The notes under the pieces are model-generated. The model searched no databases. It was not told the origin of the DNA and saw nothing but the letters and a program-made list of their open reading frames with translations. A program made the translations under genes and the position numbers. Positions 19,316 to 59,868 of a DNA stretch of 64,000 nucleotides are shown here, one piece after another (within the stretch, counting starts at the first letter, position 1; each line of letters begins with the position of its first letter). This DNA is from Halohasta salina (lineage in GTDB: Archaea; Halobacteriota; Halobacteria; Halobacteriales; Haloferacaceae): contig NZ_JAMZIE010000002.1 in the NCBI RefSeq assembly GCF_024178165.1, forward strand, positions 496,001 through 560,000. The letters are read 5' to 3'.

Positions 19316-20414
19316 GGTCGACGATCTGAAGTTCCGCGACCCGGAGGCCGCAGAGGAACTCGCCGCCGACATCGAGGCCCAGATGGCGCGGATCGACGAG
19401 CCGGTCGAGATCATGCACGTCTGTGGGAGCCACGAGCAGGTCATCGCCAAGTTCGGGCTCCGGAGCATGCTCCCGGCTGACCTCTCGATAACGATGGGAC
19501 CGGGCTGTCCGGTCTGTGTGACGAACATGCCCGAAGTCGACGAGGCGGTGGCGCTCGCGGAGGCCGGCAAGACCGTCGCGACCTACGGCGACATGTTCCG
19601 CGTGCCGGGGACGGTCAAATCACTCGCGGACGCCAAATCGGAGGGCGCGTCGGTCGAGGTCGTCTACAGCGCGAGCGATGCGGTCGACCTCGCCGCGGAA
19701 AACCCCGACGAGGACGTCGTCTTCTTCGCGACCGGCTTCGAGACCACGGCCGCGCCGACCGCGGCCGTCCTGCAGGCCGACCCGCCGGAGAACTTCTACG
19801 TCCTCTCGGCGCACAAGTACGTCCCCCCGGCGATGGAAGTCGTCGCGGAGATGCCCGACACCGACGTCGACGCGTTCCTCGCGGCCGGCCACGCGGCGAC
19901 CATCACGGGCTACGGCCTCTTCGAGGAGTTCACCGACGAGTACGACCTCCCGGTCGTCGTCGGCGGTTTCGAACCGCTCGACGTGCTGTACGGCGTCCGC
20001 AGGATCCTCGAATTCATCGAGGCGGGCGAAAGTGGCCTCGACAACGCCTATCCACGTGGTGTCTCTCGCGAGGGTAACGTGGCGGCAATGGGTGCCATTG
20101 ACGAGGTGTTCGAGCGCACGTCCGGCGAGTGGCGCGGTATCGCCGAGATCCCGGAGGCCAACTTCGTCCTGCGCGACGACTACGCAGCCCACAGCGCCCG
20201 CCGACAGTTCGACGTCGAGGCCGTCGACGGGGCGGGCGATCCCCTCACCGAGGAGTGTATTTGTGGCAATATCATGGCCGGAACGGCCTCGCCAAAGGAG
20301 TGTGATCTGTTCGGCGAGGAGTGTACGCCGTCGAACCCGGTCGGGGCGTGTATGGTCTCCGACGAGGGCACCTGCAAGATCGCCCTCGAGTACGGGGGGC
20401 AGCCGGACCTATGA
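19305..20414 (+). CDS. hypD: Hydrogenase maturation protein HypD
   Basis: This 369-residue Fe-S protein is the scaffold on which Fe(CN)2CO is assembled with HypC. Visible signatures are HVCGSHE (active Cys), GPGCPVC, FFATGFETTAAPTAA, and the C-terminal cluster-binding cysteines in ECICGNIMAGTASPKEC followed by ECTPSNPVGACMVSDEGTC. The ATG at 19305 is used because it gives the normal HypD N terminus; the open frame upstream is simply hypC read in another phase. It overlaps hypE by 4 nt. Confidence 0.94.
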   Translation: MTTEVDDLKFRDPEAAEELAADIEAQMARIDEPVEIMHVCGSHEQVIAKFGLRSMLPADLSITMGPGCPVCVTNMPEVDEAVALAEAGKTVATYGDMFRVPGTVKSLADAKSEGASVEVVYSASDAVDLAAENPDEDVVFFATGFETTAAPTAAVLQADPPENFYVLSAHKYVPPAMEVVAEMPDTDVDAFLAAGHAATITGYGLFEEFTDEYDLPVVVGGFEPLDVLYGVRRILEFIEAGESGLDNAYPRGVSREGNVAAMGAIDEVFERTSGEWRGIAEIPEANFVLRDDYAAHSARRQFDVEAVDGAGDPLTEECICGNIMAGTASPKECDLFGEECTPSNPVGACMVSDEGTCKIALEYGGQPDL

Positions 20415-21442
20415 GCGACGAGACGGTAACCGTCGCCCACGGCTCCGGAGCCGGGAAGACCCGGGAGTTCATCGAGGACCGTATCTGCTCGCGGTTCGCC
20501 GACGCTGGCGGAGACCCGGACCTCGCCGTCGGCCTCGGGGCACTCGACGACGGCGCGGTCCACGATCTCGGCGACCAGTCGGTGGTCGTCACGACCGATA
20601 GCCACGTCGTCTCGCCGCTGTCGTTCCCGGGCGGCGACATCGGTCGGCTGGCCGTCGCGGGGACGGTCAACGATCTGGCGGTCATGGGGGCAACCGACCC
20701 ACTCTCGCTTACCTGTTCGCTCGTCGTCGAGGCGGGGACGTCTCTCGACCTGCTGGAGGAGATCCTCGACTCGATGCAGGCCGCCTGCGAGGAGGCCGGC
20801 TGTGCCATCACCACCGGCGACACGAAGGTGATGGGCAGCGGCGAGATCGACGGGATCGTCATCAACACCACGGGGGTCGGCGTCCTCCCGCGGGGCGAGC
20901 ACGTTCCCGACGCGGGCCTCTCGCCGGGTGACAAACTCGTTCTCTCGGGGCCAGTCGGCGACCACGGCATCACGCTACTGGCCGAGCGCGAGGGGTTCGA
21001 TATCGACGGCGACCTCACGAGCGACGTCGCGCCGATCAACGACATCGTCGACGCCGCACTCGACACGGGGACCGTCACCGCGATGAAAGACCCGACGCGG
21101 GGCGGGCTCGCGACCGCACTCAACGAGATGGTTCGGAAGGCCGACATCGGGGCGACGGTCGACGAGACCGCGATCCCGGTCCGCGAGTCGGTCGCGGCGG
21201 CGGGCGAACTCCTCGGGATCGACCCCTTCGACGTGGCCAACGAGGGGAAGGTCGTCTTCGGCGTCGACGCCGCCGACGCCGAGGCCGTCGTCGAGGCGAT
21301 CCGGTCGACCCAACGGGGGAGCGACGCCGCCGTCATCGGCGAGGTCACCGCGGACAACGCCGGGCGGGTCGTCCTCGACACCGGGTTCGGACGCCGCTAC
21401 CTGAGTGAACCGGAGGGCGAACAGCTCCCACGGATCTGCTGA
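20411..21442 (+). CDS. hypE: Hydrogenase maturation protein HypE
   Basis: This 343-residue member of the PurM/SelD-like ATP-dependent family dehydrates the thiocarbamate on its C-terminal cysteine to thiocyanate, the source of the active-site cyanides. Features are the N-terminal HGSGAGKTREFIED, TDSHVVSPLSFPGGDIGRLA, KDPTRGGLATALNE and, decisively, the terminal P-R-I-C. It works with HypF, which is encoded three genes downstream. The ATG overlaps the hypD stop (ATGA), and hypA starts 2 nt after its own stop. Confidence 0.95.
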   Translation: MSDETVTVAHGSGAGKTREFIEDRICSRFADAGGDPDLAVGLGALDDGAVHDLGDQSVVVTTDSHVVSPLSFPGGDIGRLAVAGTVNDLAVMGATDPLSLTCSLVVEAGTSLDLLEEILDSMQAACEEAGCAITTGDTKVMGSGEIDGIVINTTGVGVLPRGEHVPDAGLSPGDKLVLSGPVGDHGITLLAEREGFDIDGDLTSDVAPINDIVDAALDTGTVTAMKDPTRGGLATALNEMVRKADIGATVDETAIPVRESVAAAGELLGIDPFDVANEGKVVFGVDAADAEAVVEAIRSTQRGSDAAVIGEVTADNAGRVVLDTGFGRRYLSEPEGEQLPRIC

Positions 21443-21444
21443 GC

Positions 21445-21885
21445 ATGCACGAACTCAGCCTCGCGGAGGCACTGCTCGACCGGGCCGCCGAGGTCGCCGC
21501 CGAACACGACGCCGAGACCGTCGACGCGCTGACCGTCGAACTCGGTGCGGCGACCCACGTCAACCCCGACCAGTTGCGGTTCTGTCTCGAAACGGTCGCG
21601 ACGGCGACGGTCGCGGCGGATGCCACGGTCGACATCGAGACCGTCACCCCACGCGCGGCCTGCGACTGCGGCTGGGAGGGCGAGCCGCCGAGCTTCGAGG
21701 GGACCGCAGCCGTCGTACCGACGGCTCGCTGTCCGGAGTGTGGCGACCGGACCGAGTTCGTCCGCGGAAAGGAGTGTCACCTGACCGCCGTCTCCGTCCC
21801 TGACGACGCCGAGTCGACCACCGCCGAGAACGACAGCGATTCGACTTCCACCGAGAACGACACAGAAGCGACCACCACCGAATAG
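21445..21885 (+). CDS. hypA: Hydrogenase nickel-insertion protein HypA
   Basis: This 146-residue protein begins MHELSLAEALLDRA, where the invariant Met-His-Glu binds nickel. A zinc site follows with cysteines in ACDCGWEG and RCPECGD. The last 30 residues are a Thr/Glu/Asp/Ser-rich tail (DDAESTTAENDSDSTST and on), an extension relative to the usual length of about 115. HypA hands nickel to the large subunit together with HypB, encoded immediately downstream. Confidence 0.93.
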   Translation: MHELSLAEALLDRAAEVAAEHDAETVDALTVELGAATHVNPDQLRFCLETVATATVAADATVDIETVTPRAACDCGWEGEPPSFEGTAAVVPTARCPECGDRTEFVRGKECHLTAVSVPDDAESTTAENDSDSTSTENDTEATTTE

Positions 21886-21897
21886 GAGCACGACACC

Positions 21898-22764
21898 ATG
21901 ACGACAGTACCCACCGCGAGACGGATGCATCGAACACCAATCGACCGGCTGCTGGCCGCTCTGTTCGGTCGATCACAGCGATCACAGCGAGCGCCGATCG
22001 CCCGCGCCCACCGGTTCGGCCACGATCACGACGAGTCGACCGAGTCGGAGGCCGCCGACGACGTACTCGCACAGTTCCGCGAGCAGGCCCAGGCGCTCCA
22101 CGAGGAGGTCGTCCACGACCACGGCGTGTTCGTCGTCGAGTTCCTCGGGGCGACCGGCAGCGGCAAGACGACGCTCGTCGAGCGACTTATCGAGCGCGCC
22201 CCGAACGACGAGCAGATCGGTGTCGTCGTGGGCGACGTGGCCGGGGACGACGACGCGAGCCGGTTCCGTGACCACGGCGTGTCGGTCGCCAACGTCACGA
22301 CCGGCAAGGAGTGTCACCTCGACCCCGGCCTGTTGGAGGGGGCCCTCTCCGAGTTCGATCTCGACGAACTGGATCGGCTGTACGTCGAAAACGTCGGCAA
22401 CATGGTCTGTCCGGCCGACTTTCCGCTCGGCGCACAGGCACGGGTCCTCGTCGTGAGCACGACCGAAGGCGACGACGTGGTGCGCAAACACCCGCTGTTG
22501 TTCGAGGCCTGCGACGCCGCGGTCGTCAACAAGGTCGACATCGCGGATGCCGTGGGAGCCGATCTCGACCGCATGGCCGCGGATGTCCAGGATGTCGTCC
22601 CTGACATGGACGTGTTCCGGACGAACGCACGGGCCGACGAGGGTGTCGACGACCTCGCGTCGTTCCTGGCCAACCTCCGGACGGGCGACCACCACCATCA
22701 CGGCCACGGCAACCACGATCACGCCCATGACGACCACGTAGGGACACACGACCACCACGACTGA
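21898..22764 (+). CDS. hypB: Hydrogenase nickel GTPase HypB with His-rich C terminus
   Basis: This 288-residue SIMIBI GTPase has its P-loop in GATGSGKTTLVE (residues 84-91 core), then VGDVAGDDDASR, TGKECHLDP, the YVENVGNMVCP metal-switch segment, and NKVD for guanine recognition. It drives nickel insertion with HypA. Twelve of the last 26 residues are histidine, and a few more (HRFGHDHDE) lie in the N-terminal extension. His-rich nickel-storage segments of HypB are usually N-terminal, so the C-terminal placement is unusual. A GGAG-type sequence stands before the ATG. Confidence 0.92.
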   Translation: MTTVPTARRMHRTPIDRLLAALFGRSQRSQRAPIARAHRFGHDHDESTESEAADDVLAQFREQAQALHEEVVHDHGVFVVEFLGATGSGKTTLVERLIERAPNDEQIGVVVGDVAGDDDASRFRDHGVSVANVTTGKECHLDPGLLEGALSEFDLDELDRLYVENVGNMVCPADFPLGAQARVLVVSTTEGDDVVRKHPLLFEACDAAVVNKVDIADAVGADLDRMAADVQDVVPDMDVFRTNARADEGVDDLASFLANLRTGDHHHHGHGNHDHAHDDHVGTHDHHD

Positions 22765-22766
22765 CG

Positions 22767-25067
22767 ATGGTCGACACCTGCCGAGCGACGGTCCGTATCT
22801 CCGGCACCGTGCAGGGTGTCGGATTCCGGCCGTTCGTCTACCGAACCGCGGTCGAGGCGGGCGTGACGGGCCACGTCCGCAACGCGGGTGGGACCGTCGA
22901 GGCCGCCTTCGAGGGCCCCCGCGATGCGGTCGAGGATGTAGTAGCGACCGTCCGAGACGACACCCCGCCGCTGGCGACGGTCGACGCCATGACGGTCGAC
23001 TGGGGTGAGCCGGCCGGTGACGATAGCTTCGAGATCCGCGACTCCGAGGCCGACGCCAGCGGCGGGATCGACGTTCCCGTCCCGCCGGACACGGGGATCT
23101 GTGAGGCGTGTCTCGACGACGTTCGCGATCCGTCCTCGCCGTACCACGACTACTGGGCGACCGCCTGCGTCGACTGTGGCCCGCGGTTTACCGCCGTCCG
23201 GGACGTTCCCTACGATCGAACCCGGACGTCGATGGCCGACTTCCCCCTGTGTGATGACTGTCGGGAGCGCTACGAGACGCCGACGGACCGACGCTACCAC
23301 GCCCAGACGACCGCCTGTCCGGACTGCGGGCCGACCCTCCAGTATGAGGTCGACGGCTCCCCCGTAACGACTGGCAACGACGTGCTCCGGCGGGCTGGCG
23401 ACGCGCTATCCGCCGGAAATATCATCGCGGTCAAAGGGATCGGCGGGTTCCATCTCGTCTGTGACGCGACTGACCCGGCGGTCGTCGACGCGCTCCGGGA
23501 GCGCACGGGACGGCCCGCCAAACCGTTCGCCTGTATGGTCCCATCGCTCGACAGCCTCAGTGGGTTCGCCGCGGTCGACGAGGCTGAGGCCGACGCACTC
23601 GGCGACATTCGCCGGCCGATCGTCCTGGTCGACAAAGCCGCCGAGACACCGTGGCTTGAGGCGGTCGCCCCGGGACTCGACACCCTCGGCGTGATGTTGC
23701 CGTACGCCGGCCTCCACCATCTCCTGTTCGACCACGTCTCCGGCCCGCTCGTGATGACGAGTGCGAACCGCCCGGGCGAACCGATGTGTACGACCGCCGA
23801 CGCGGTGTGGGCGCGACTCGACGGAGTAGTCGACGGCGTGCTCACTCACGACCGCGAGATCGTCGCCCGGTGTGACGACAGCGTCGTCCGCGTCGTCGAC
23901 GGCGACCGACGGTTCGTCCGTCGCTCCCGTGGCTGGACGCCGACGACCCTCCCGAACCCCGCGGGGGACAGCGAGACAGCGCCCGTGGTGGCGCTGGGCC
24001 CAGAGCGGGACGCCACGGTCGCCGTCGCGACGGGCGAGGGGGTCGTCGTCTCCCAGCACCTCGGCGATATCGACGGCCCCGAGGCGCTGTCGTTTCACCG
24101 CGAGGCGGTCGACCACTTGTGTCGACTGACCGACATCGAACCCGAGGTCGTAGCCTGCGACCAGCATCCCGAGTTCCTCACGACCGCCGAGGCCGACAGC
24201 TACGCCGCCGAGGGGACAGAGGGCCCGGTCGCCGTCCAGCACCACCACGCACACGCCGCCGGGTTGTGTGCCGAACACGGCATAGAGCGGGCCATCGTCG
24301 TGACGGCCGACGGAACCGGCTACGGGCCGGACGGAACGGTGTGGGGTGGCGAGGTCCTCGACGTCCAGTACGCCGACTTCGAGCGTGTCGGCGGACTGGG
24401 ACCGTTCCCACTGCCGGGCGGACGGGCGGCCGTCGAATACCCGGCCCGCGTGCTCGCCGGTCTGCTTGCAGACCCCATCGTCGACGACCGACTCGTCGAG
24501 ACCGGGGCCGTCGACTCGCGGGCGGAGGCGACGGTCGTCCGTCAGCAGGCCGAAACCGGGGTCAACGCGCCGACAACCACGAGTGCGGGGCGGGTGCTCG
24601 ACGCGGTGAGCGCGCTGGTCGGTGCCTGCGACAGGCGGACCTACGAGGGCGAACCCGCCCAGCGGCTCGAAGCCCTTGCCACCAACGGCACGGTCCAGCC
24701 GATAGACATCCAGTACCGCTCTACTAACGGCCGTCGCGTTTTGGACACACAGTCCCTCGTTTCGGCTCTCGCCGACATGCTGACTCGCCAGTCGGCGGCC
24801 GACGTGGCGGCGACGGCCCAAGCCGCCGTGGCGCGCGGGCTCGGGACGCTCGCGGTCGCGGCTGCGAGGAGACGCGATGTGGGGACGATCGGGTTCACCG
24901 GTGGCGTCGCCTACAACGACGCCATCAATCGACACCTCCGAGCGGTCGTCGAGGGTGCGGGTCTCACGTTGCTCACACCGAATGCCGTCCCGCCCGGCGA
25001 CGGGGGGATCGCCTACGGACAGGCCATCGTCGCCACCTCGCGCTCGGTCGACCGACATAACGAGTAG
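22767..25067 (+). CDS. hypF: Carbamoyltransferase HypF
   Basis: This 766-residue enzyme transfers the carbamoyl group of carbamoyl phosphate to HypE. The domains are in standard order: acylphosphatase-like (1-90, VQGVGFRPFVYR), two zinc fingers (about 110-190, CEACLDDVRDP, CVDCGPRF, CDDCRERYE, CPDCGP), YrdC-like (about 200-390, KGIGGFHLVCDA) and Kae1/HypF_C (about 400-760, HHHAHAAGLCAEHGI and the ADGTGYGPDG nucleotide loop). It is the last gene of the hydrogenase operon; about 130 nt of unassigned sequence separate it from a convergent gene. Confidence 0.95.
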   Translation: MVDTCRATVRISGTVQGVGFRPFVYRTAVEAGVTGHVRNAGGTVEAAFEGPRDAVEDVVATVRDDTPPLATVDAMTVDWGEPAGDDSFEIRDSEADASGGIDVPVPPDTGICEACLDDVRDPSSPYHDYWATACVDCGPRFTAVRDVPYDRTRTSMADFPLCDDCRERYETPTDRRYHAQTTACPDCGPTLQYEVDGSPVTTGNDVLRRAGDALSAGNIIAVKGIGGFHLVCDATDPAVVDALRERTGRPAKPFACMVPSLDSLSGFAAVDEAEADALGDIRRPIVLVDKAAETPWLEAVAPGLDTLGVMLPYAGLHHLLFDHVSGPLVMTSANRPGEPMCTTADAVWARLDGVVDGVLTHDREIVARCDDSVVRVVDGDRRFVRRSRGWTPTTLPNPAGDSETAPVVALGPERDATVAVATGEGVVVSQHLGDIDGPEALSFHREAVDHLCRLTDIEPEVVACDQHPEFLTTAEADSYAAEGTEGPVAVQHHHAHAAGLCAEHGIERAIVVTADGTGYGPDGTVWGGEVLDVQYADFERVGGLGPFPLPGGRAAVEYPARVLAGLLADPIVDDRLVETGAVDSRAEATVVRQQAETGVNAPTTTSAGRVLDAVSALVGACDRRTYEGEPAQRLEALATNGTVQPIDIQYRSTNGRRVLDTQSLVSALADMLTRQSAADVAATAQAAVARGLGTLAVAAARRRDVGTIGFTGGVAYNDAINRHLRAVVEGAGLTLLTPNAVPPGDGGIAYGQAIVATSRSVDRHNE

Positions 25068-28674: not shown

Positions 28675-29430
28675 TCAGGCCTGTCGCCACGCGAAGGCGC
28701 GGTTCTGGACCGGGTTCAACACGGCGTACTCGATGACGAGCACCACGCCGACGAACAACACGGCGTAGGCCAGCACTTCGGCGATGTTGCCCTGGAGGAA
28801 CCAAAACCGGACCCGCGAGCCGACACCGTTGCTGATGCCGAAGACCTCGGCGATCACCGCCACCTTCCAGGTCATCCCGAAGAGGTTGCGGAGCGACGAG
28901 AAGATGTACGACATGAGGTGCGGAACGTAGATCTGCCGCCAGATCTCGACCCGGCTAGCCTCGAAGGCGTCGGCCATCTCGACGAGCCCCGGGTCGACCT
29001 CCTGGAGCCCTTGCCAGATCGTCACCAGCGCGAACGGCGTGTAGGCGAAGGTGACCGCGACCACGACCGCGAGGCTGTTGAAGCCGAGAATCACCATCAC
29101 GACGAGGATCACCACGACGTCCGGCGGCGTCATCCACACCGGCAGCCACGCTTCGAAGGCCTTGGCAACGCCGTCGTTGGTTTTCATCGCGATCCCGATG
29201 ACGAGTGCGATCCCCAACGCGAGGGCGGTCGACGCCAGCACGCGGCCGAAGGTTACCCAGAGGTGGTAGAGCGCCGACCGGTTGTCGATATCGCCCTCGA
29301 AGACGAACTCGACGATCAGGCCGCCGACGGCGACTGGCGAGGGAAACATCCGGCCGTTGTAGAGCGACAACAGCCACCACCCTGCCACGAAGGCGACAAG
29401 CGAGACGGCGATGCGAGGGGCTCGGTTCAT
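28675..29430 (-). CDS. ABC transporter permease (SsuC/TauC-like)
   Basis: This 251-residue inner-membrane permease has about six helices and the EAA-loop signature (VEMADAFEASRVEIWRQIYVPHL) of nitrate/sulfonate/taurine-type importers. It is the last gene of a five-gene minus-strand cluster: gamma-glutamyltransferase, permease, binding protein, ATPase, permease. Its start overlaps the ATPase stop by 4 nt. The importer has two different permeases and probably forms a heterodimeric channel. The substrate cannot be read from the sequence. Confidence 0.85.
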   Translation of the reverse strand: MNRAPRIAVSLVAFVAGWWLLSLYNGRMFPSPVAVGGLIVEFVFEGDIDNRSALYHLWVTFGRVLASTALALGIALVIGIAMKTNDGVAKAFEAWLPVWMTPPDVVVILVVMVILGFNSLAVVVAVTFAYTPFALVTIWQGLQEVDPGLVEMADAFEASRVEIWRQIYVPHLMSYIFSSLRNLFGMTWKVAVIAEVFGISNGVGSRVRFWFLQGNIAEVLAYAVLFVGVVLVIEYAVLNPVQNRAFAWRQA

Positions 29431-30335
29431 GACTCGTCGGGGCCGGTATCGAGATGGGCGAAGAACTGCTCCATCATCGTAGATTCGGTTTCGATCAGTG
29501 CCTCGTCGCCGATGGTACGTGGTCGCGGCGCGTCGACGCTGACCTGATCGAACAGTTGGCCGTTGTCGTCGAGGATCAGGATCGAATCCGAGAGGAAGAC
29601 CGCCTCGCTGCTGTTGTGCGTGACGAAGATGATGGTCTTGCCCGTCTCCTTCCAGATTTCGAGTAAGTCCGCTCGGAGTTCCTTGGCGGTGAACTCATCG
29701 AGGCTGCTGAACGGTTCGTCCATGAACAGGATCTCGGGGTCGACCGCCAGCGCGCGGGCGATGCCGACACGCTGTCGCATCCCGCCCGAGAGCTGCTGGG
29801 GGTAGCTGTCGATCTTGTCTTCGAGCCCGACGAGTTCGAGATAGCGGTAGATCCGTCCCGACTGGTCTTCAGGGGGGACCCCCTGGGCCCGGAGGGCGAA
29901 CCGCACGTTTTCGCCGATGGTGAGCCAATCGAGCAGCCGCGGCTCCTGAAAGACGTAGCTGTAGAAGAACTCCCCCGGCTCGACGATCTCGCCGTCCCGT
30001 CGAATCTCGCCTTCGTCCGGCGGAATCAGCCCGGAGATGACGTTGAGCAGCGTCGACTTCCCGCAGCCCGAGGGGCCCATAATCGAGGTGAAACTCCCTT
30101 CGGTGATCTCGAAATCGAGGCCCTCGAAGACGGTAAACGACTCCTCGCCGTTGGCGAAGGACTTCTTCAGGTTCGAAAACGCGATCACCGAGGCCTGGCC
30201 GTCGGCGGAGTGGCTATCGCTGCTGGCGGGAGCAGTTGGTTCGCCGTCGCCGGAGTGGCTCTCGTCGACTGGCGGTCCGGTCGTGGTGTCGTCGGATTGG
30301 CTCATCTGTGTCGTGCTGGCGGTGGTATCGGCCAT
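29427..30335 (-). CDS. ABC transporter ATPase (SsuB/TauB-like)
   Basis: This 302-residue ATPase has a low-complexity N-terminal extension of about 50 residues and then Walker A GPSGCGKST, a Q-loop in YVFQEPRLLDW, the signature LSGGMRQRVGIARAL and Walker B ILFMDEPFSSLDE. It energises the adjacent two-permease importer. The ATG complementary to 30333-30335 is preferred; a slightly longer version (from 30347) or a shorter one (from about 30305) cannot be excluded. The stop overlaps the permease start. Confidence 0.85.
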   Translation of the reverse strand: MADTTASTTQMSQSDDTTTGPPVDESHSGDGEPTAPASSDSHSADGQASVIAFSNLKKSFANGEESFTVFEGLDFEITEGSFTSIMGPSGCGKSTLLNVISGLIPPDEGEIRRDGEIVEPGEFFYSYVFQEPRLLDWLTIGENVRFALRAQGVPPEDQSGRIYRYLELVGLEDKIDSYPQQLSGGMRQRVGIARALAVDPEILFMDEPFSSLDEFTAKELRADLLEIWKETGKTIIFVTHNSSEAVFLSDSILILDDNGQLFDQVSVDAPRPRTIGDEALIETESTMMEQFFAHLDTGPDES

Positions 30336-30399
30336 CGTCAGCCCCAATCAGTCGCTCGGTACCCGTTGAGACGGCGGTCGACCTCGTCGCGTGAAGCGA

Positions 30400-31437
30400 T
30401 CATGCATCGGCCTCCGCTCGGAGATCGTCGATCGAAATAACGTGGTCCTCACGCGGCGGGACCTCCTCGATCGAGCCGAGATCCGCCATCGCTTCGACGA
30501 GTCGCCACTGGGAGTCGATCAGGTCGTCTGTGTACTCGTCGATCGGGAGGTGGAGCCCGCCGGACTCGGCGAGCTCGATTACCGCATCCTGATCGCCTTC
30601 GCCGACACCGGCGAGCTGGCCGTACTCGGAGACGACCGCTTCGGCGTTGTTCTCGATGTGTTGTTGGGCCGTTCCCCAGCCTTCGACCAACGCGAGGGCG
30701 GTGTCGTAGTTCTCCTCGAGCCAGCTTCGTTGAGCACACCACGGCGTGATTAGCGGCGGGTAGCCGGTCTCGGCCTCCCACTCCTCCCAGGCGTTGTAGA
30801 CGGGCCGAACGTCGTCGGAGTTGGCGAGACCACGCACCGTCTGGCCCGTGAACTGCAGCATCGCATCGACCTCGTCCTGCTCGACCATCAGATCGTACAG
30901 CGTGGCCGGATCGGACTCGACACTCTCGTTTTCCTCGCGGATGTCGAAGCCGTATTGCTCCCAGATCATCGCTTGGGTGTAGGTGCCGGTCCCGGTCGAC
31001 CAGCCGGGATGACCGAACCGAATCCCCTGGAGGTCTTCGACGGTCTCGATATCGGAGTCAGTGGGGACGAAAATCGAGTTGATCTGGGTGATACACGGGC
31101 CGAACTGCACCAGCTCTTCGCCCTCTTGGGTGTACTGTGCGAGGTTGTTGTATTCGAGCAGTCCGACGTCGTTGCCGCCGGACGGCAACGCGTTGACGAA
31201 CCGGCCGTAGGCCGCTACCTCGGGGGCGAATTCGAGTCCCTCGTCGGCCCAAAACCCCTCGTCGGTCCCCGAGAGGAAATGCATGATGTTGAGGTTCCCC
31301 TCCGGCGTGAGCAGTTCGATCGACTCCCCCGACTCGCCGCCGCCACCCATACACCCTGCCAGTCCGACCGATGCGGCAGCACTGATGCCGGCGGCAGATT
31401 TCACAAACGAACGTCTACTGAAACTGCGTTTTCCCAT
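30400..31437 (-). CDS. ABC transporter substrate-binding lipoprotein (NMT1/TauA-like)
   Basis: This 345-residue protein begins MGKRSFSRRSFVKSAAGISA with a twin arginine and the lipobox VGLAGC, so it is exported and lipid-anchored. The mature part is an NMT1/TauA-type periplasmic-binding fold: IELLTPEGNLNIMHFLSGTDEGFWADEGL, then a VGLLEYNN substrate-loop region and NSIFVPTDSDIETVEDLQG. Its substrate is probably a small nitrogen- or sulfur-containing organic molecule by family. The start is chosen at the signal peptide. A TATA-like sequence (AAACTATAAC read on this strand, about 31473-31464) is well placed for a leaderless transcript. Confidence 0.85.
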   Translation of the reverse strand: MGKRSFSRRSFVKSAAGISAAASVGLAGCMGGGGESGESIELLTPEGNLNIMHFLSGTDEGFWADEGLEFAPEVAAYGRFVNALPSGGNDVGLLEYNNLAQYTQEGEELVQFGPCITQINSIFVPTDSDIETVEDLQGIRFGHPGWSTGTGTYTQAMIWEQYGFDIREENESVESDPATLYDLMVEQDEVDAMLQFTGQTVRGLANSDDVRPVYNAWEEWEAETGYPPLITPWCAQRSWLEENYDTALALVEGWGTAQQHIENNAEAVVSEYGQLAGVGEGDQDAVIELAESGGLHLPIDEYTDDLIDSQWRLVEAMADLGSIEEVPPREDHVISIDDLRAEADA

Positions 31438-31815
31438 TACAATCAGGTCGATACACCACGCATAGTTATAGTTTTGGTCGGATTCAATCACAATATACTG
31501 TACAAGAGCCAAGGTAGACTGTATACTGTTTGTATGTCCTAATATTCGAAACGATTCGGCGGTTACCCATCGACGAGTCGGCTCTCGGTTCGGATTCTGG
31601 CTCGGAGGGCCACAGTTCTGCCGGAACAAACATTCCAAGTCGAGCGATTGCAGAATAAAGTGCCGGATCGACCGAAGCGGGTGCGGACATGCTGGCGATC
31701 GACCGGACGGATGCGGACGCGTCGGCGGTCGACCGGTCGGTCGACCTGTCGACGGCGGCATCGCTGGCAGCATCGGTGACGAACGGCGGTCGGAGGACAG
31801 TAGAACGGAGAGCGG
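31438..31815. other. Intergenic region between binding protein and second permease
   Basis: These 378 nt hold a TATA-like promoter for the binding protein gene near 31470 and AT-rich sequence around 31480-31540. The segment 31560-31800 reads protein-like for short stretches on the minus strand but shows no consistent gene. I see no RNA gene or mobile-element end. Confidence 0.4.
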
Positions 31816-32661
31816 TCAGGCGGCCTGAGTCGGTGCGTCGGCGTCCCGCCAGGAGAACCGCTCGGTTTCGATCCGTCGGAGCCCCCGGTCGATGAGGAAC
31901 ATCAGTGCCATCATCGGGAGCACCCACGCGATGATCATGTCGTTTTGGTTGGCTTTGAAGTAGTAGTTGATAATCTCGCCCAGTCCGAGTTGCGTCCCGA
32001 AGATCTCCGCGATGAGGGTGATCTTCCATGCGAGTGTCAGCGTGAGCCGCGTGCTACCGAAGATGTGTGGATAGAGATGGGGAATGTAGATGTTCTGCCA
32101 GACGAGGTACGACGAGGCATCGAAGGAGTCTGCCATTTCCGTGAGGTTCGAGTCCAACTCCTCGATTCCCTCCTTGATACTGATCGCGACGTACGGGGCG
32201 ACGATCATGAAGACAGTGAAGACGGCGACGAACCACGTCGTCAGGCCGAACCAGATCACCGCCAGGAACGCCCAGATAACCGACGGGAACGCGAAGGTCC
32301 CGAGGACGTAAACGAACAGGTAGTCGTCGGCACGCTGGCTCGTGCCCATCAGGATCCCGGCCGAGATACCCACGACCAGGCAGAGCACGGTCGCTGCCAG
32401 GACACGGAGCAGCGTCATCCCGTAGTTGTCGACGACCGAAAACTCCCCGCCCGAGCCGAACACCCCAACGATGGACGCCAGTAGTTCAGGAATCGTCGGG
32501 AAGATGTACGACGGCGTCTGTGACGCCGCGAGCGTCCAGACACCCATCACGATCAGCACCGATACCGGAACGGCAACACGCTCGCCCAGCGGGCCGTTCC
32601 ACCCGTCGGCCCACCCGTCCGTCGACGAAGACGTCGTGTCAGTGCCCATCGTTTTCCCCAT
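31816..32661 (-). CDS. ABC transporter permease, second of the pair
   Basis: This 281-residue permease has about six helices and an EAA loop (LTEMADSFDASSYLVWQNIYIPHL) closely resembling that of the permease at 28675. The two share the order of motifs but are clearly diverged, consistent with a heterodimeric channel. It lies between the gamma-glutamyltransferase gene and the binding protein gene. Two or three in-frame ATGs occur within 12 codons; the one complementary to 32659-32661 is used. A TATA-like element (TTTATATG on this strand, about 32747-32740) precedes it, so it probably has its own promoter downstream of the transferase gene. Confidence 0.82.
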   Translation of the reverse strand: MGKTMGTDTTSSSTDGWADGWNGPLGERVAVPVSVLIVMGVWTLAASQTPSYIFPTIPELLASIVGVFGSGGEFSVVDNYGMTLLRVLAATVLCLVVGISAGILMGTSQRADDYLFVYVLGTFAFPSVIWAFLAVIWFGLTTWFVAVFTVFMIVAPYVAISIKEGIEELDSNLTEMADSFDASSYLVWQNIYIPHLYPHIFGSTRLTLTLAWKITLIAEIFGTQLGLGEIINYYFKANQNDMIIAWVLPMMALMFLIDRGLRRIETERFSWRDADAPTQAA

Positions 32662-32783
32662 TATTGTTCGACATGCATCCACTTTTCAGCGCAGATTTCA
32701 GTTGTCCCATCAGCTATGCAGCGATCGATCGGGCGAACATATAAATCTGTGTGTCAGCGCAGTCCTACCGTCGACGGCCGCCC

Positions 32784-53324: not shown

Positions 53325-53669
53325 TCACGTCGACGACGTCCCGTCGCTGGGCGTCGGGTCGAGCGGGATCGCCGCCGGCTCCCAGAGGTGGGTTTCGAGC
53401 CGGTCTGTCAGCGCGTCGAGTCGGGCGAGGTTCCGTTGGTACTGGTCGGACTCGACGAACCGCCCCCAGTTGGCGAGCGTCGCGAACTCGAAGCGGAGTC
53501 GAACCGCCGGACTCTCCCCCATGAGGCTCCGTTCGCTCCGGAAGCCATCGAGGCTCTCGGCCATGAGCCACTGTTCTGTCGTTTTCGAAAGCCACGTCTC
53601 GTGGTCCGCCCTGTGCTGATCACGGATGTCGTAACTGATCTCGAACACGTATCGTTCGTAGGGGTTCAT
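53325..53669 (-). CDS. Dimeric alpha/beta-barrel (ABM-like) protein
   Basis: This 114-residue protein begins MNPYERYVFEISYDIRDQHR, followed by a TWLSKTTEQWL helix, VRLRFEFATLANWGRFVESD and QYQRNLARLDAL, the size and alternation of antibiotic-biosynthesis-monooxygenase/NIPSNAP-like dimeric barrels. The assignment is structural guesswork; no cofactor motif is visible. It lies between the ThuA-like gene and the torD-type chaperone gene but is separated from the latter by 56 nt. Confidence 0.5.
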   Translation of the reverse strand: MNPYERYVFEISYDIRDQHRADHETWLSKTTEQWLMAESLDGFRSERSLMGESPAVRLRFEFATLANWGRFVESDQYQRNLARLDALTDRLETHLWEPAAIPLDPTPSDGTSST

Positions 53670-53725: not shown

Positions 53726-54289
53726 CTATTCCAGCAGCACCTCGCGGGTCGTCCGCGCCAGCGCGGCGTAGAATCCCTCGCAGGTCTCGGCTTCGACCCG
53801 GTCGAGGAACGTGTCAGCCCAGACGCGGAGGTGTTCGTCGAGGAACTGTTCGAGCCGGTCGACGCGTCCCTCGTCGGCGAGGGCGGCGGCGAACTCCAGT
53901 TCGGCCGCGATGTGGTCCGGCAGGTCCGAGTACTCCGGGGCGGGGTGGACGCCGAAGGCCCGATACCACCGTCTGACCGCGACCGTCGACGGGCCCTCGA
54001 CCGGACCGAACTCCGCGTCGTCCTCCCCGTCGCGGTAGACGCTCTCGTAGGGGGGACACGGCGGTCCCGCCGGCCCGATGAACAGCCGGGTGTACTCGAC
54101 GCGGAGGTCGTCGGGGTCGACGCCGTCGAGGTCGCCGACGACCGGCGTCAGTTCCCCCTCGTTGGCGACGGCGACCAGCCGGTCGGACGGCTCGCGCCAA
54201 CACACGGCGAGGACCGCGTAGGTCGCCGCGAGGTCGGACTCCAGCCCGTCGACGCTGTCCGTGGTCGGGCGGTCGGTGGTGTCGCTCAT
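53726..54289 (-). CDS. dmsD: TorD/DmsD-family chaperone for the molybdoenzyme
   Basis: This 187-residue helical protein shows YAVLAVCWREPSDRL, EYTRLFIGPAGPPCPPYESVY, and late LPDHIAAELEFAAAL, the TorD family pattern (L..Y..LF.GP..P.PPYES). It binds the Tat signal of the molybdoenzyme and aids cofactor insertion before export. It is the last gene of the DMSO-reductase-type operon. Its start overlaps the NrfD stop by 3 nt. Confidence 0.88.
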   Translation of the reverse strand: MSDTTDRPTTDSVDGLESDLAATYAVLAVCWREPSDRLVAVANEGELTPVVGDLDGVDPDDLRVEYTRLFIGPAGPPCPPYESVYRDGEDDAEFGPVEGPSTVAVRRWYRAFGVHPAPEYSDLPDHIAAELEFAAALADEGRVDRLEQFLDEHLRVWADTFLDRVEAETCEGFYAALARTTREVLLE

Positions 54290-55590
54290 GTGGTGTCCTC
54301 GTGGCCGCCATCAGTTGCATACGAGCGCTGTCCGTCGGGCTGCTGGATCGGGACGTACCGCATGCCGACGGTGACGATGAGGGCACCGACGGCGATGATC
54401 CCGAGGGTGACCACGACCTCGACCAGCGTCGGCGTGTAGGATCCGGCGGTCGCCCAGATGTCGGTCCCGACACCGGCGTAGGTGCCGCCGAGGGAGATCC
54501 CCGGCGCGGCATCGATGTTGGCGACCTCGTAGCCCGTGAACACCAGCCGGATTCCCTCGAACATCGTCCCGACGACCGCCAGCGCGCCAGCGGTGACGAT
54601 GACCGGCACGCGCTTCCGCAGCGAGGGGATCGCCAACAGCCCCAGCGGCAGTGCCCCGCCGACGACCGTCCACAGCCAGAAGTACGCCGACTCGCCGATG
54701 AGGAAGCTCCCGGTGATCGCCCAGAACTCGAAGTGGTTGGCCCAGGCGTGTGGCAGCCGTTCGGCCGCCAGCAGGTAGACCACGTGGAACGCGAGGAAGA
54801 TGCCCAGCACCTTCCCGAGGCTCGCGAGTTCTTCGCGGTCGACTCGGAAGCGCGTGAACCGGTCGGCGAGCACGGCGACGACCAACAGGAGGCCGAGGCC
54901 GGAGACGAGCGCCTTCGCGATGAAGACGGGCGCGACGAGCGGGCTGAACCAGTCGCCACGACCGATCTGGGTCGCGAAGATCCAGCCGGTCACCGAGTGG
55001 AGCGCGACCGCCGTCGGCAACGCGACCGTCGCCGTCCAGAACATCAGCTTGCGGTCGCGCTCGCGGCCCGCCTCGGTGTCCTCGCGGCCGAACGCTAGCC
55101 GCGAGCCGGCGGCGGCCAGATCACGGCGGGTCAACAGCCACAGGTACCAGAGGTTGAGCGCCCCGTAGAGGAGGACGATCCCGAAGTCCCACACCATCGG
55201 CGACCGGAAGTCCGGCGAGGTGACAAACTGGTAGAGTCGCTCTGGCCGGCCGATGTCGGGGAGGATGAGCAGTCCCGCGACGGTGATACACGCGAGGCTC
55301 ACCAGCACGCCGAGGCGGGCGAACCCCTCGTAGCGGTGGGAGTGGAAGAACTTCGGCGCGCTCGAAATGATGAGTCCGCCCGCCGACAGCCCGACGAACA
55401 GGACGAACATCATGATGTACAACCCCCACGAGAAGACGTTTCGCATCCCGGTGGCGATCAGTCCCGTGGTGAGTTGGTACCCCCAGGCGGCCAGCCCGGC
55501 GACGATCAGCGCCCCCAGCAGGCCGAGCCAGAGTTTCCCCTTCCGGCCGAAGGCGGGGACCGCGATCCCAGAGGACTCGGTCGACGCCAT
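54286..55590 (-). CDS. dmsC: NrfD-family membrane anchor subunit
   Basis: This 434-residue protein has about ten membrane helices of the NrfD/PsrC/DmsC class. Visible points are GLYIMMFVLFVGLSAGGLII, a long GRPERLYQF loop, TGWIFATQIGRGDW and LPHAWANHFEFWAI. These subunits oxidise quinol and pass electrons to the Fe-S subunit. It overlaps the Fe-S gene by 1 nt (ATTA type) and the chaperone gene by a few nucleotides, so the four structural genes form one transcript. Confidence 0.9.
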   Translation of the reverse strand: MASTESSGIAVPAFGRKGKLWLGLLGALIVAGLAAWGYQLTTGLIATGMRNVFSWGLYIMMFVLFVGLSAGGLIISSAPKFFHSHRYEGFARLGVLVSLACITVAGLLILPDIGRPERLYQFVTSPDFRSPMVWDFGIVLLYGALNLWYLWLLTRRDLAAAGSRLAFGREDTEAGRERDRKLMFWTATVALPTAVALHSVTGWIFATQIGRGDWFSPLVAPVFIAKALVSGLGLLLVVAVLADRFTRFRVDREELASLGKVLGIFLAFHVVYLLAAERLPHAWANHFEFWAITGSFLIGESAYFWLWTVVGGALPLGLLAIPSLRKRVPVIVTAGALAVVGTMFEGIRLVFTGYEVANIDAAPGISLGGTYAGVGTDIWATAGSYTPTLVEVVVTLGIIAVGALIVTVGMRYVPIQQPDGQRSYATDGGHEDTT

Positions 55591-56324
55591 TAGTCGTCAC
55601 CTCCCGATTTCGCCGCGGGCACGCCTGGCATCGCGTCGTCGTCGAGTTCGCTCTCCAGTTTGTCGCTCGTCTGGGGTCGACCGGGGCTCATCTCGCCACG
55701 GATGTAGTACGTCTTGGGGTCGGTCCCCCGGTCTTCGAGCAGCCGGTCGGTCTCGTAGTTGTTGACGTACTTCGAGACGGTGCTGGTCTCCTCGTCGAGG
55801 TCGCCGAAGATCCGGGCGTCGGCCGGACAGTTGACGACACAGGCGGGGTCGAGCCCCTCGTCGACGCGGTGGCTACAGAACGTACACTTCTCGACGACGC
55901 CCTGCGGTCGGGCCTCGACGTCGCCGGTTCCCTCCTCGGGGACGTGTTCGGGCTCGTCCCAGTTGAACACCCGCGCGTTGTACGGACAGGCGGCCATACA
56001 GTACCGGCAGCCGATACACTTGTCGTAGTCGATCTCGACGATCCCGTCGTCCCGGGTGTAGGTCGCGTTGACCGGGCAGACCTTCACGCAGGGGGCGTTC
56101 TCACAGTGCTGGCAGGCCGTCGGCTGGTAGTGCATGTCCAGGGTGCCGTCGTCCCCGTCTTCGGGGTACCCCCCTGCCGGGGTGTCGAGCTTGTCGCCGC
56201 CCTCGGTGAGCACCCGGTTCCAGAACTGCCCCATCGGGACGTTGTTCTCCTGCTTACACGAGACGGCACAGGCCTGACAGCCGATACACCGTTCCTGGTC
56301 GATTACTAAGCCGTAGTTCGTCAT
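55590..56324 (-). CDS. dmsB: Four-cluster Fe-S electron-transfer subunit
   Basis: This 244-residue protein has the DmsB/NrfC/PsrB layout with Cys motifs CIGCQACAVSCK, CQHCENAPCVKVCP, CIGCRYCMAACP and CTFCSHRV-x-CVVNCP for four [4Fe-4S] clusters. It conducts electrons between the membrane subunit and the molybdenum subunit and has no signal peptide of its own. An acidic loop (TLDMHYQPTAC and preceding GGYPEDGDDG) is a halophilic insertion. It starts 2 nt after the molybdenum-subunit stop. Confidence 0.92.
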   Translation of the reverse strand: MTNYGLVIDQERCIGCQACAVSCKQENNVPMGQFWNRVLTEGGDKLDTPAGGYPEDGDDGTLDMHYQPTACQHCENAPCVKVCPVNATYTRDDGIVEIDYDKCIGCRYCMAACPYNARVFNWDEPEHVPEEGTGDVEARPQGVVEKCTFCSHRVDEGLDPACVVNCPADARIFGDLDEETSTVSKYVNNYETDRLLEDRGTDPKTYYIRGEMSPGRPQTSDKLESELDDDAMPGVPAAKSGGDD

Positions 56325-56326
56325 TG

Positions 56327-58807
56327 TCAGTCACCTCCAGTGTGGGGAGTCGCCGCACCGGACCCCTTGGGGTTCCCCTCCGTGTACATGCTGGTGTCGA
56401 CGTCCTCGGGTGCGGGTTCGACCGCCACACGGACGTCGTAGAACGCCATACACCGGCCGACATCGCTGGTCTCGTTGTGTGTGAGGTCGTTGAGGTGGCC
56501 CTCGACGAAGTCCCGTGCCCACCATCCCTGATCGGTGTTGACCAGACCGGGCTGGAACGCCTCGTTGTACTTCGCCTTCACGACCATCTCGCCGCGGTCG
56601 TTGTACACTCGGACGTACTCGTCGTCCTCGATGCCGCGGGCCTTCGCGTCCCGCGGGTGGATGTCCAGTTGCGGTTCGGGATTGATCTCGCGGCTCCAGT
56701 TCACCATCTCGTACTGCGAGTGGATGCGGAAGCGACTGTGCTTCTGCATGAACATGAGGGGGTACTCGTCGGCCTGCTCGTGGTCGTCGGCCGTCCGGTC
56801 TTCCAGCGGCCGCGGCAGCTCGAAGGAGACGCCCTCCTCGCTCGGGGCGTCGTCGTCGTACAGCTCGATGCGCCCCGTCTCGGTGGGGAACTCGTCGGTG
56901 TACTTGACGACCGGCGTGGTCTCCTTGCGCTGGGTCCCCTGTTCGTACAGCGTCTCGAAGTCGATGGCGTCGTCCCGGCTGGCGAGCTCCCGGAGCATCT
57001 CGCGTTTCGTCTCGGGGAACCGGTCGCCGAAGCCGAGTCGCTCGGCCAGACCACGGATGGCCTCGTAGTCGTCTCTGGTCTCCCAGAGCGGCTCCTGGAC
57101 CCTGTGTCGGTAGCCGAGGTGTGGGTGCGACCCCCAACCGGAGATGATGTCCTCCTGTTCGAACCAGTGGGGCACCGGCAGGACGATGTCGGCCTGCTGG
57201 ACCGTATCCGTGTGGTGCATGTCGGCAACCACGTACATCTCGAGGTTCTCGATAGCGTTCTGGTAGCGCTGGCGGTCGGGGAACTGGTTGCCCATCATGT
57301 TCGACTCGATGGAGTAGACGGCCCGGATCTCGTGGGGATCGCCGTCGATCATCGCGTCGGGGTACTCCGGGAAGATCAGCGACGGCCCGGGGTCGACGTC
57401 CGACGGCGCTGCCCAGTCGCCGGCGGCGAGCGTCGTTCCGCCGGGGTGGTGGGCGTGAATGTTGCCGTGGTTCCCGTAGTCGCCGGTCATCGCCAGCATG
57501 ATCGCGTAGGCCTGCCCGAAGATGTGGCCGTGTGTGTACCGACCGAGGGCGTAGCTCGACGCGATGCCGCCGGGACCCCGGGTGGCCAGCCAGCGCGCGG
57601 CCGTGCGGATGTTGTCGGCGTCGACGCCGGTCTTCTCGGCGACCGCCGCGGGCGCGTGGTCGGCGGCGTGGTCACGGAGCTTCGTCAGCGAGGTCACACA
57701 CTCGACGCCGTCGACCGTGTACTCGCCAAACAGGGCGTAGTCCCCCTCGGTTTCGGGTTCGAGGGCGACCGGTTCGCCGTCTTCGATCGCGACGACCTGA
57801 TCGTCGCGCCCGTCGACCGAGACGTCGGCCGCCCGGAGCAGTTCGCCGGTGTCGGTGCGGACCAATGCGGGGGCGGTCGTCCGGCTGCGGAGGAAGTCGG
57901 TGTCGTAGGTTTCCTCCTCGAAGACGGTGTGCATCATCGCGAGGATGAGGTAGACGTCCTTGCCGGGTTTGACCGGGAGCCACAGGTCGGCTTTCGACGC
58001 CGTCGTCGTGTACACCGGGTCGACGACGACGAGTTTCGCCCCGTTTTCGACCGCATCCAGCACCTTCGAGGCGTCCATCTGGAACTGGCTGGAGAAGATG
58101 TCCGACCCCCAGACGATGATCGTGTTGGCGTTCTCCCAGTCCTCGGACTCGTTTGTCGGCGGGAGGAACGCGCCGTGGCCGGTGATGCGGTTGAATCCCT
58201 TGCCGACGTTGGTATCGATCCCCCACGCCGACTGGGTCGCGCCGAACAGCGAGGCCAGCCGCTTGAACGATTTGCCCGTCTGTCCGTAGTTCCCCGATCC
58301 CTCGTGGAACAGGACGCTCTCGGCACCGTACTCTGATTTCAGCGACTGCATCTTGTCGGCGACCAGATCCAGCGCCTCGTCCCACGAGATCCGCTCGAAC
58401 TCCGCCTCCGGCCCTCTCCCCGTCGGATTGGGCTCGTCGGGCGACCAGTCGGCGCGCTTCATCGGGTACTTCAGCCGCGTCGGATCGTAGACGCGCTGGG
58501 TGTGTGACAGGCCGAGCACGCAGGCCCGTTTGTACTGTTCGTCCTCCGGCGGATGTGGCTCGATCTTCTTTATTTGGCCGTCCCGCACGTGGACGTCGAT
58601 CGGACACTTCCCACGGCAGTTCGGCGAACAGACCGTCTGGGTGACCTCGTTTTGGCCGACGAAACTCTCGAGGCCGGTAGCCGTCGACGCTCCATCGCCG
58701 CCGCTGGCGAGTGCGTTGAGATAGCCACCGCCGCCGAGCCCGAGTGCGGCGGCCGCCCCACCGGCTTTCAGTACGTCGCGTCGGCCGACGTCCTCCGAGT
58801 CACCCAT
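56327..58807 (-). CDS. dmsA: Molybdopterin oxidoreductase, DMSO/TMAO-reductase type, Tat-exported
   Basis: This 826-residue catalytic subunit has a Tat signal (VGRRDVLKAGG), an N-terminal [4Fe-4S] site (CSPNCRGKC then RACVLG) and the molybdopterin domains. In the segment where family members place the Mo ligand it reads HEGSGNYGQTGKSF, containing Ser but no Cys or Asp. This fits DMSO/TMAO reductases (Ser) better than Psr, Phs, Ttr or Nap (Cys). Gene order (small protein, A, B, C, chaperone, with a Bat-family regulator alongside) repeats the dmsREABCD locus described in Halobacterium. The exact substrate (DMSO, TMAO or a sulfur or selenium oxyanion) remains uncertain. It overlaps the small upstream gene by 8 nt. 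Confidence 0.87.
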   Translation of the reverse strand: MGDSEDVGRRDVLKAGGAAAALGLGGGGYLNALASGGDGASTATGLESFVGQNEVTQTVCSPNCRGKCPIDVHVRDGQIKKIEPHPPEDEQYKRACVLGLSHTQRVYDPTRLKYPMKRADWSPDEPNPTGRGPEAEFERISWDEALDLVADKMQSLKSEYGAESVLFHEGSGNYGQTGKSFKRLASLFGATQSAWGIDTNVGKGFNRITGHGAFLPPTNESEDWENANTIIVWGSDIFSSQFQMDASKVLDAVENGAKLVVVDPVYTTTASKADLWLPVKPGKDVYLILAMMHTVFEEETYDTDFLRSRTTAPALVRTDTGELLRAADVSVDGRDDQVVAIEDGEPVALEPETEGDYALFGEYTVDGVECVTSLTKLRDHAADHAPAAVAEKTGVDADNIRTAARWLATRGPGGIASSYALGRYTHGHIFGQAYAIMLAMTGDYGNHGNIHAHHPGGTTLAAGDWAAPSDVDPGPSLIFPEYPDAMIDGDPHEIRAVYSIESNMMGNQFPDRQRYQNAIENLEMYVVADMHHTDTVQQADIVLPVPHWFEQEDIISGWGSHPHLGYRHRVQEPLWETRDDYEAIRGLAERLGFGDRFPETKREMLRELASRDDAIDFETLYEQGTQRKETTPVVKYTDEFPTETGRIELYDDDAPSEEGVSFELPRPLEDRTADDHEQADEYPLMFMQKHSRFRIHSQYEMVNWSREINPEPQLDIHPRDAKARGIEDDEYVRVYNDRGEMVVKAKYNEAFQPGLVNTDQGWWARDFVEGHLNDLTHNETSDVGRCMAFYDVRVAVEPAPEDVDTSMYTEGNPKGSGAATPHTGGD

Positions 58808-59042
58808 CGTCGAACCCCTCCGGTTCGGTCGGCCGGTTGTCCTCGCCGAACTCCGCCAGCACGTCCTCGTGGTACTTCTCGTGGAACTCGGCGTCGGTTA
58901 GCTCGCCGTTCGAAACGCGAATCGCGTCGCGAGCCATCTGCAGTCCCAGCTCAGCGTCGTAGTCGACGCCATCCAGAATATCCATCGCCTCCGATTCCCA
59001 CTCGGGGAGTGGCGTCAGAGTCGGCTGTTGTGGGTCGTTCAT
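58800..59042 (-). CDS. Small leader gene of the DMSO-reductase-type operon (DmsE position)
   Basis: This 80-residue acidic protein begins MNDPQQPTLTPLPEWESEAM and shows YDAELGLQMARDAIRVSNGEL, then FHEKYHEDVLAEFGEDN, a helical domain of the sort found at the N terminus of some haloarchaeal ferredoxin-like proteins. It has no Cys, so it binds no cluster itself. It occupies the position of dmsE in the Halobacterium locus. Its stop lies within the next gene (8-nt overlap), indicating coupled translation. A TATA-like CTTATAAG (minus strand, about 59109-59102) lies about 60 nt upstream. Confidence 0.65.
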   Translation of the reverse strand: MNDPQQPTLTPLPEWESEAMDILDGVDYDAELGLQMARDAIRVSNGELTDAEFHEKYHEDVLAEFGEDNRPTEPEGFDDG

Positions 59043-59109
59043 GGCTACAGTTACACTGTCGGAGCCAAACGCCGTAGGGGATTGGCTGGATAATGAAGAT
59101 ACTTATAAG

Positions 59110-59119
59110 CAACCGGTTG
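59110..59119. promoter_or_regulatory. Palindrome CAACCGGTTG next to the dms promoter
   Basis: A perfect 10-bp palindrome abuts the TATA-like box of the DMSO-reductase-type operon on its upstream side. The position fits an activator site, and the regulator gene just upstream (to the right) is the obvious candidate to bind it. Confidence 0.4.
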
Positions 59120-59229
59120 GGAGGATGAACTATTCGTGGCGGTCATCGGGCTGCTTTCCCGACTACACAGTATCGGCTGGAAAACAACGACCGATATGGA
59201 AATTCGAAACAGCTACCGACGTGCTGTCG

Positions 59230-59868
59230 TCACGGATCGAAGACCGCGGTCGCCAGTTTCGACTCGACAGCGTTCAGCCGCTGTGAGAGTGCCGACTTCG
59301 AGATCCCAAGCGTCGTTGCGAGATCGTCGAGACTCGTCTGTCTGGGTGTCTCGTAGTAGCCCTCGCTTACCGCCATCGTGGCCGCCTCTCGCTGTTTCGC
59401 GGTCAGATGTGAGAGTTCGACGGTGGTCGGCGACGACGCGACGGCACCATCCCGTCTGGCGGTGAGTCGCTGGAGACTGACGTGCTCGGTCACGGTTTTG
59501 AGTCGGTCGACGAGTTCGCTGATGCGTTCTCGATCCGAGAGGTACGTCTCGATGAGGACCGCGTCCCCGTCGGCGTTCCGGATGCGTGGGATACAGCCGA
59601 CCTCCCTGAACGCGAGACAGAGACAGGAGCCCTCGACGTGGTTCGTCGTGTGAACCACGTGGGCAGTATCGGACTCGTCACAGACAGTCACCTCCGCGTG
59701 ACAGACCCCGTCGTCGATCTGGTTGTGCACGTTCTCGACCGGCGACTCCGAATTCGAGAGCGGACACGAACAGTCTTCGGACAGTATGACCTCGAACAAC
59801 ACCTGGAGGGTTCGCTCTTTCGAGGCGCTCTCCCCCGAGCCCGTGTTCCCACTCTCAGAACGTTCCAT
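59230..59868 (-). CDS. dmsR: Cys-rich Bat-family HTH regulator (DmsR-like)
   Basis: This 212-residue protein has an N-terminal sensor region with seven cysteines (C33, C35, C56, C63, C82, C84, C92) and several histidines, then a helical linker and a C-terminal HTH_10 (about 157-212, LTAKQREAATMAVSEGYYET and LGISKSALSQRL). HTH_10 proteins of this kind adjoin the dms operon in Halobacterium and activate it without oxygen. The Cys/His content suggests an Fe-S or thiol redox sensor, which is inference. The ATG complementary to 59866-59868 is used. A TATA box (AATTTATATACC on this strand, about 59909-59898) is about 30 nt upstream. Confidence 0.82.
   Translation of the reverse strand: MERSESGNTGSGESASKERTLQVLFEVILSEDCSCPLSNSESPVENVHNQIDDGVCHAEVTVCDESDTAHVVHTTNHVEGSCLCLAFREVGCIPRIRNADGDAVLIETYLSDRERISELVDRLKTVTEHVSLQRLTARRDGAVASSPTTVELSHLTAKQREAATMAVSEGYYETPRQTSLDDLATTLGISKSALSQRLNAVESKLATAVFDP

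Follow-up and report, generated by a model that had tools for sequence, protein, structure and literature searches.

In Halobacterium, the dmsREABCD operon encodes a bifunctional DMSO/TMAO reductase that is positively controlled by DmsR, as knockout evidence indicates (PMC1447603, a review). Haloarchaeal DmsA is listed as Asp-coordinated in published surveys (PMC6650914; PMC10100899). The use of formate or H2 as donors with DMSO as acceptor has been reported across strains of Halodesulfurarchaeum (PMC5437934; PMC6176080), and natronoarchaea have been reported to use H2 together with either DMSO or sulfur (PMC6176080). In Halodesulfurarchaeum formicicum, HTSR_0517 is induced on DMSO and HTSR_0423 was undetected in DMSO-grown cells (PMC5437934).

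We analysed a stretch of 64,000 nucleotides of the Halohasta salina genome (hereafter the window), and find in it a real Dms operon, fairly typical of haloarchaea, whose catalytic clade is the less studied one. We propose, at a probability of about 0.68, that this operon encodes an exported, Asp-ligated S-/N-oxide reductase complex of the haloarchaeal Dms type, which electrons from H2 could reach via the quinone pool. The operon runs from 59868 to 53726 on the minus strand as six co-directional genes in the order dmsR-E-A-B-C-D. This order, regulator-small protein-A-B-C-chaperone, and the operon boundaries (53726-59868) had been given in the preliminary description, and both the gene positions and the domain matches agree with it. 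From dmsE through dmsD, neighbouring genes overlap or nearly abut. The features of the window discussed here are as follows.

59230-59868, minus strand: dmsR-like Bat-family transcriptional activator (Pfam DmsR_N 2.8e-9, HTH_10 6e-19)
58800-59042, minus strand: dmsE, an 80-aa Ferredoxin_N-domain protein (PF16947 1.8e-33)
56327-58807, minus strand: dmsA, molybdopterin catalytic subunit, 826 aa (three molybdopterin oxidoreductase domains)
55590-56324, minus strand: dmsB, ferredoxin-like electron-transfer subunit (NCBIfam DsrO above cut-off; Fer4 / 4Fe-4S dicluster domains)
54286-55590, minus strand: dmsC, predicted NrfD/PsrC-type membrane quinol-oxidising anchor (PF03916 NrfD 6.5e-65)
53726-54289, minus strand: dmsD, TorD/DmsD-family maturation chaperone (PF02613 1.5e-28)
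53325-53669, minus strand: 114-aa open reading frame directly downstream of dmsD (homologs beside dmsD in Haloferax marinum, L021 13303-13620)
14644-18816, plus strand: [NiFe] hydrogenase, comprising a small subunit (Tat), large subunit, cytochrome-b561-type subunit and maturation protease; proposed quinone-reducing partner
20321-25067, plus strand: hydrogenase maturation genes (AIR-synthase/HypE-like, HypA, HypB-like, HypF)

Translation of dmsR from the ATG at 59868 yields 212 aa, with an open reading frame extendable to 60078, and the Halobacterium R gene has the identical pair of Pfam domains (DmsR_N and HTH_10). The 3′ end of dmsE overlaps the start of dmsA and its product is free of cysteines; Halobacterium DmsE matches PF16947 (Ferredoxin_N) at 5e-34. 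DmsA carries the 4Fe-4S cysteines Cys60/64/68/96 as well as the putative Mo ligand Asp198, and the 16 Cys of DmsB fit four 4Fe-4S clusters. The DmsD-specific model scores 5e-20 on the dmsD product, under the model's cut-off, and in the family model search DmsB and DmsC of the window passed none of the DMSO-reductase-specific B or C models. The 114-aa open reading frame is possibly part of the Dms module. It matches no Pfam family and turns up again next to operons for Dms and for Psr-type molybdoenzymes (also at L015 7871-8170).

Searching genome contigs with DmsA returned 27 loci, including that of Halobacterium salinarum DSM 3754, which is split across two contig ends. Using tblastn with each window protein, we located R, E and A on one contig (L042) and the end of A, B, C and D on the other (L044), and the Halobacterium dmsREABCD order is repeated in the window as had been claimed. 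Window DmsA is 55% identical to the first part (L042, residues 1-634) and 59% to the second (L044, residues 617-825). In a 60-row tree of catalytic subunits the haloarchaeal DmsA clade, window included, is fully supported (100% SH-aLRT). It falls within the Ser/Asp part of the superfamily (97), and PhsA/TtrA-like proteins branch elsewhere; a 31-row tree groups it with the Asp proteins at 90 (not starred). Forced union with the Cys-ligated sulfur reductases was rejected (p=0.03), while union with the Ser group (E. coli DmsA/YnfE/TorA), although absent from the best tree, was not rejected (p=0.25). The deep branching order is uncertain, because several outgroup branches are long. Together with the Halobacterium-like operon and the catalytic identity, this placement bears out the assignment of the locus as dms-type, and the proposed phylogenetic check of the catalytic subunit came out on the haloarchaeal DmsA side, not with the Cys-ligated sulfur reductases, the grouping named as refuting the proposal.

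The argument from the Mo ligand, on the other hand, had to be changed. The Mo-ligand segment of DmsA, QSAWGIDTNVGKGFNR, had been described as having Ser but no Cys or Asp. We aligned it with E. coli NarG, DmsA, YnfE/F, TorA and NapA, Proteus PhsA, the genome's own paralogs and 40 haloarchaeal rows. D198 of the WGIDTN motif aligns with E. coli NarG Asp222 and is invariant in 40/40 haloarchaeal homologs; position 199 varies among T, S, A and I in those homologs (Thr199 in the window). No Ser is conserved at the Mo-ligand columns among the 40 haloarchaeal homologs, and window DmsA has no Cys at these columns. Asp198 is likely the Mo ligand, judging from this conservation. Since Asp ligation has already been described for haloarchaeal DmsA, Asp198 supports the Dms assignment, and the Dms-type conclusion holds with Asp in place of Ser: it is Asp that accompanies DMSO reductase in haloarchaea. 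An AlphaFold2 model of DmsA built from 18 homologs had a mean pLDDT of 59, too low to measure distances in the active site or to search by fold. The best PDB sequence match of DmsA is thiosulfate/polysulfide reductase 2vpw, and the anchor is NrfD-type rather than DmsC-type, features that would suit a Cys-ligated polysulfide/thiosulfate reductase; however, the Cys-free ligand columns with their invariant Asp198, the rejection of a clade with PhsA/TtrA-like proteins and the presence of a separate PhsA-like operon in the genome make such an identity very improbable.

Twin-arginine motifs are present in DmsA (GRRDVLK) and in the hydrogenase small subunit (TRRNFL), and both enzymes are predicted to be Tat-exported, as first suggested. 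The operon had also been placed within 30 kb of the hydrogenase; this is right for the maturation cluster, with the end of hypF (25067) 28.7 kb away, and wrong for the structural and protease genes, which end (18816) at a distance of 34.9 kb. Of 392 Halobacteriales genomes, this Dms type occurs in 43, the hydrogenase in 28 and both in 11 versus about 3 expected, giving Fisher p=4e-5 by genome and p=0.002 by genus (8/95), in tests that allow only partly for relatedness among genomes. Several hydrogenase matches had in-frame TGA codons considered as selenocysteine; these are ordinary stop codons at the alignment end. Elsewhere in the window (28675-32682), the genes of an ABC transporter (two permeases, an ATPase and a binding protein of the NMT1 type) adjoin a gamma-glutamyltranspeptidase gene.

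Operons for PhsA-like and TtrA-like reductases and a formate dehydrogenase are present in the genome as well, so H2-to-DMSO would be one of several possible routes. The hydrogenase could serve sulfur/polysulfide or tetrathionate-type respiration, with Dms fed by other donors and the proximity incidental, a reading to which we give somewhat less than an even chance. Besides the other reductases and the formate dehydrogenase, it is favoured by the 35 kb gap filled with unrelated genes, by the 17 of 28 hydrogenase genomes that have no Dms, and by the use of H2 with sulfur in sulfur-respiring haloarchaea (PMC5437934; PMC6176080). However, one quinone pool would be common to both systems, no donor need be tied to one acceptor, and Dms and hydrogenase co-occur above chance. 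H2-dependent DMSO/TMAO respiration by the window genes is plausible and has precedents in haloarchaea. The PhsA-like and TtrA-like operons lie at L015 8813-13450 and L016 7765-14070 (contigs C20 and C22 of the same genome), and a Ferredoxin_N protein or domain is found near each.

Haloarchaeal DmsA falls into two clades in the tree, with catalytic subunits 55-60% identical between them. Clade I contains Halobacterium, Haloferax sulfurifontis/denitrificans, Halorhabdus and Halodesulfurarchaeum copy 2; clade II contains the window, Halorubrum, Haloarcula, Haloferax marinum, Halobiforma, Natrinema and Halodesulfurarchaeum copy 1. The two clades are fully distinguished at eleven alignment positions, including 168, which we take, from the alignment and from what is generally known of DMSO reductases, to be near the active site, and 199, which adjoins the putative Mo ligand Asp198. 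Substrate may therefore differ between the clades. Seven genomes hold two dms copies, and in the ones followed in the tree there is mostly one per clade. DMSO/TMAO function is known for clade I, from the Halobacterium knockouts (PMC1447603) and the DMSO-induced Halodesulfurarchaeum complex (PMC5437934), and window DmsA lies outside this clade of experimentally tested enzymes at the level of sub-family, not family. We infer that Halodesulfurarchaeum copy 1 is HTSR_0423 and copy 2 HTSR_0517, because of their order and spacing relative to the hydrogenase. In the Haloarcula-containing group (g44), all ten genomes with a match hold a single DmsA, 79-83% identical and of clade II, and DMSO respiration has been reported for Haloarcula strains (PMC8966722). 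Haloarcula marismortui is a reported DMSO user, yet the species has no DMSO reductase in a KEGG-based table (PMC8966722), which weakens this genus-level argument.

The most interesting by-product of the window analysis is the exchange of catalytic subunits among its relatives. The A tree and the B+C tree of Dms operons disagree. The groupings found with B+C are rejected by the A data, with p=0.002 for the Halomicrobium group and about 1e-48 for window-type plus Haloferax; those of the A tree are in turn rejected by the B+C data (p=1e-4 and 6e-57). These p-values are optimistic, since the groups were named after the trees had been seen. The clearest case of exchange needs no tree. In the syntenic plasmids of Halomicrobium sp. 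LC1Hm and H. mukohataei, R, E, B, C and D are 93, 96, 88, 98 and 92% identical and the flanking genes 94-98%, versus 58% for DmsA (L011 9974-12472 vs L013 9974-12484). Identity drops near A residue 55, past the Tat signal and ahead of the first Fe-S cysteine, and rises again around the point where A ends and B begins. The best reading of this pattern is that the mature catalytic domain was probably replaced in place by recombination, with the Tat signal retained. Another genome (G171) has two operons (L085 and L086) with B/C nearly alike (89% identity) and A from different clades. An extra B-C-D set lies just upstream of the first of these (L085, 29-2618). DmsA clades appear to have been exchanged between otherwise stable operons, which is a new finding. 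This exchange offers a natural experiment: the near-identical Halomicrobium operons differ almost solely in DmsA, so that what the cassette does to substrate use could be measured directly. We tentatively suggest, while thinking the opposite more probable, that Dms operons may be a fixed chassis (regulator, Tat signal, Fe-S subunit, quinol anchor and chaperone) with a clade I/II catalytic cassette, swapped by recombination, that changes the oxide respired, the window carrying a clade II cassette.

Clade II DmsA might be a functionally distinct S-/N-oxide or oxyanion reductase on shared Dms electron-transfer parts, DMSO not being its physiological substrate. The divergence of the clades, their mostly one-per-clade distribution in the traced two-copy genomes, the clade I membership of the DMSO-induced and genetically tested enzymes, the fixed differences at 168 and 199 flanking putative active-site residues, and the swapping of clades on unchanged partner subunits all speak for it. 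However, we consider it rather unlikely, as Haloarcula genomes hold only clade II in a genus with reported DMSO respiration (PMC8966722), and haloarchaeal and bacterial DMSO reductases take a range of S- and N-oxides (PMC10100899).

We prefer the Dms-type oxide reductase because of the domains, the Halobacterium gene order and the 47-76% subunit identity; the tree placement, Asp198, the DMSO-induced Halodesulfurarchaeum homolog and the H2 plus DMSO growth of natronoarchaea; and the co-occurrence of Dms with hydrogenase and the single clade II DmsA in the group that includes Haloarcula, strains of which are reported to respire DMSO. Counting against this reading are the grouping with Halodesulfurarchaeum copy 1, the 11 clade-fixed positions and the DMSO-reductase-specific B/C models that were not passed. 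In the proposed mechanism, NrfD-type DmsC would oxidise menaquinol, DmsB would relay the electrons via its Fe-S clusters, and Tat-exported DmsA, on the outer face, would reduce the oxide, which is most likely DMSO and/or TMAO. Maturation of the Mo subunit would fall to DmsD, DmsR would activate the operon, and DmsE would act as an accessory protein. The hydrogenase 35 kb away could supply reducing equivalents through the quinone pool.

E. coli DmsABC is Ser-ligated. Like the complex predicted for the window, it is a quinol-linked, Tat-exported Mo reductase; however, the two DmsA proteins are about 28% identical, the window anchor is NrfD-type, and the ligand feature of bacterial Ser-type DmsA/TorA is absent from the window, which has Asp198/Thr199 at the ligand columns. 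The window operon is closer to dmsREABCD of Halobacterium salinarum / NRC-1 (DmsA Q9HR74), with gene order, all subunit families and the ligand-column Asp in common and identities of 55-59% for A, 76% for B, 75% for C, 59% for E, 51% for D and 47% for R, although Halobacterium DmsA belongs to clade I and window DmsA to clade II. Halodesulfurarchaeum formicicum likewise combines Dms operons (HTSR_0517 and HTSR_0423) and a [NiFe] hydrogenase in one genome; it has two Dms copies, copy 2 being the DMSO-induced one as assigned by gene order, whereas the window has one, in the copy-1 clade. By reported features, the window also resembles the natronoarchaeal strain AArc1, which has a [NiFe] hydrogenase and a DMSO reductase and grows with H2 and DMSO (PMC6176080), although its hydrogenase is on a plasmid, unlike that of the window. 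Halohasta salina adds to the haloarchaea whose genes would allow organic oxides to be respired with H2.
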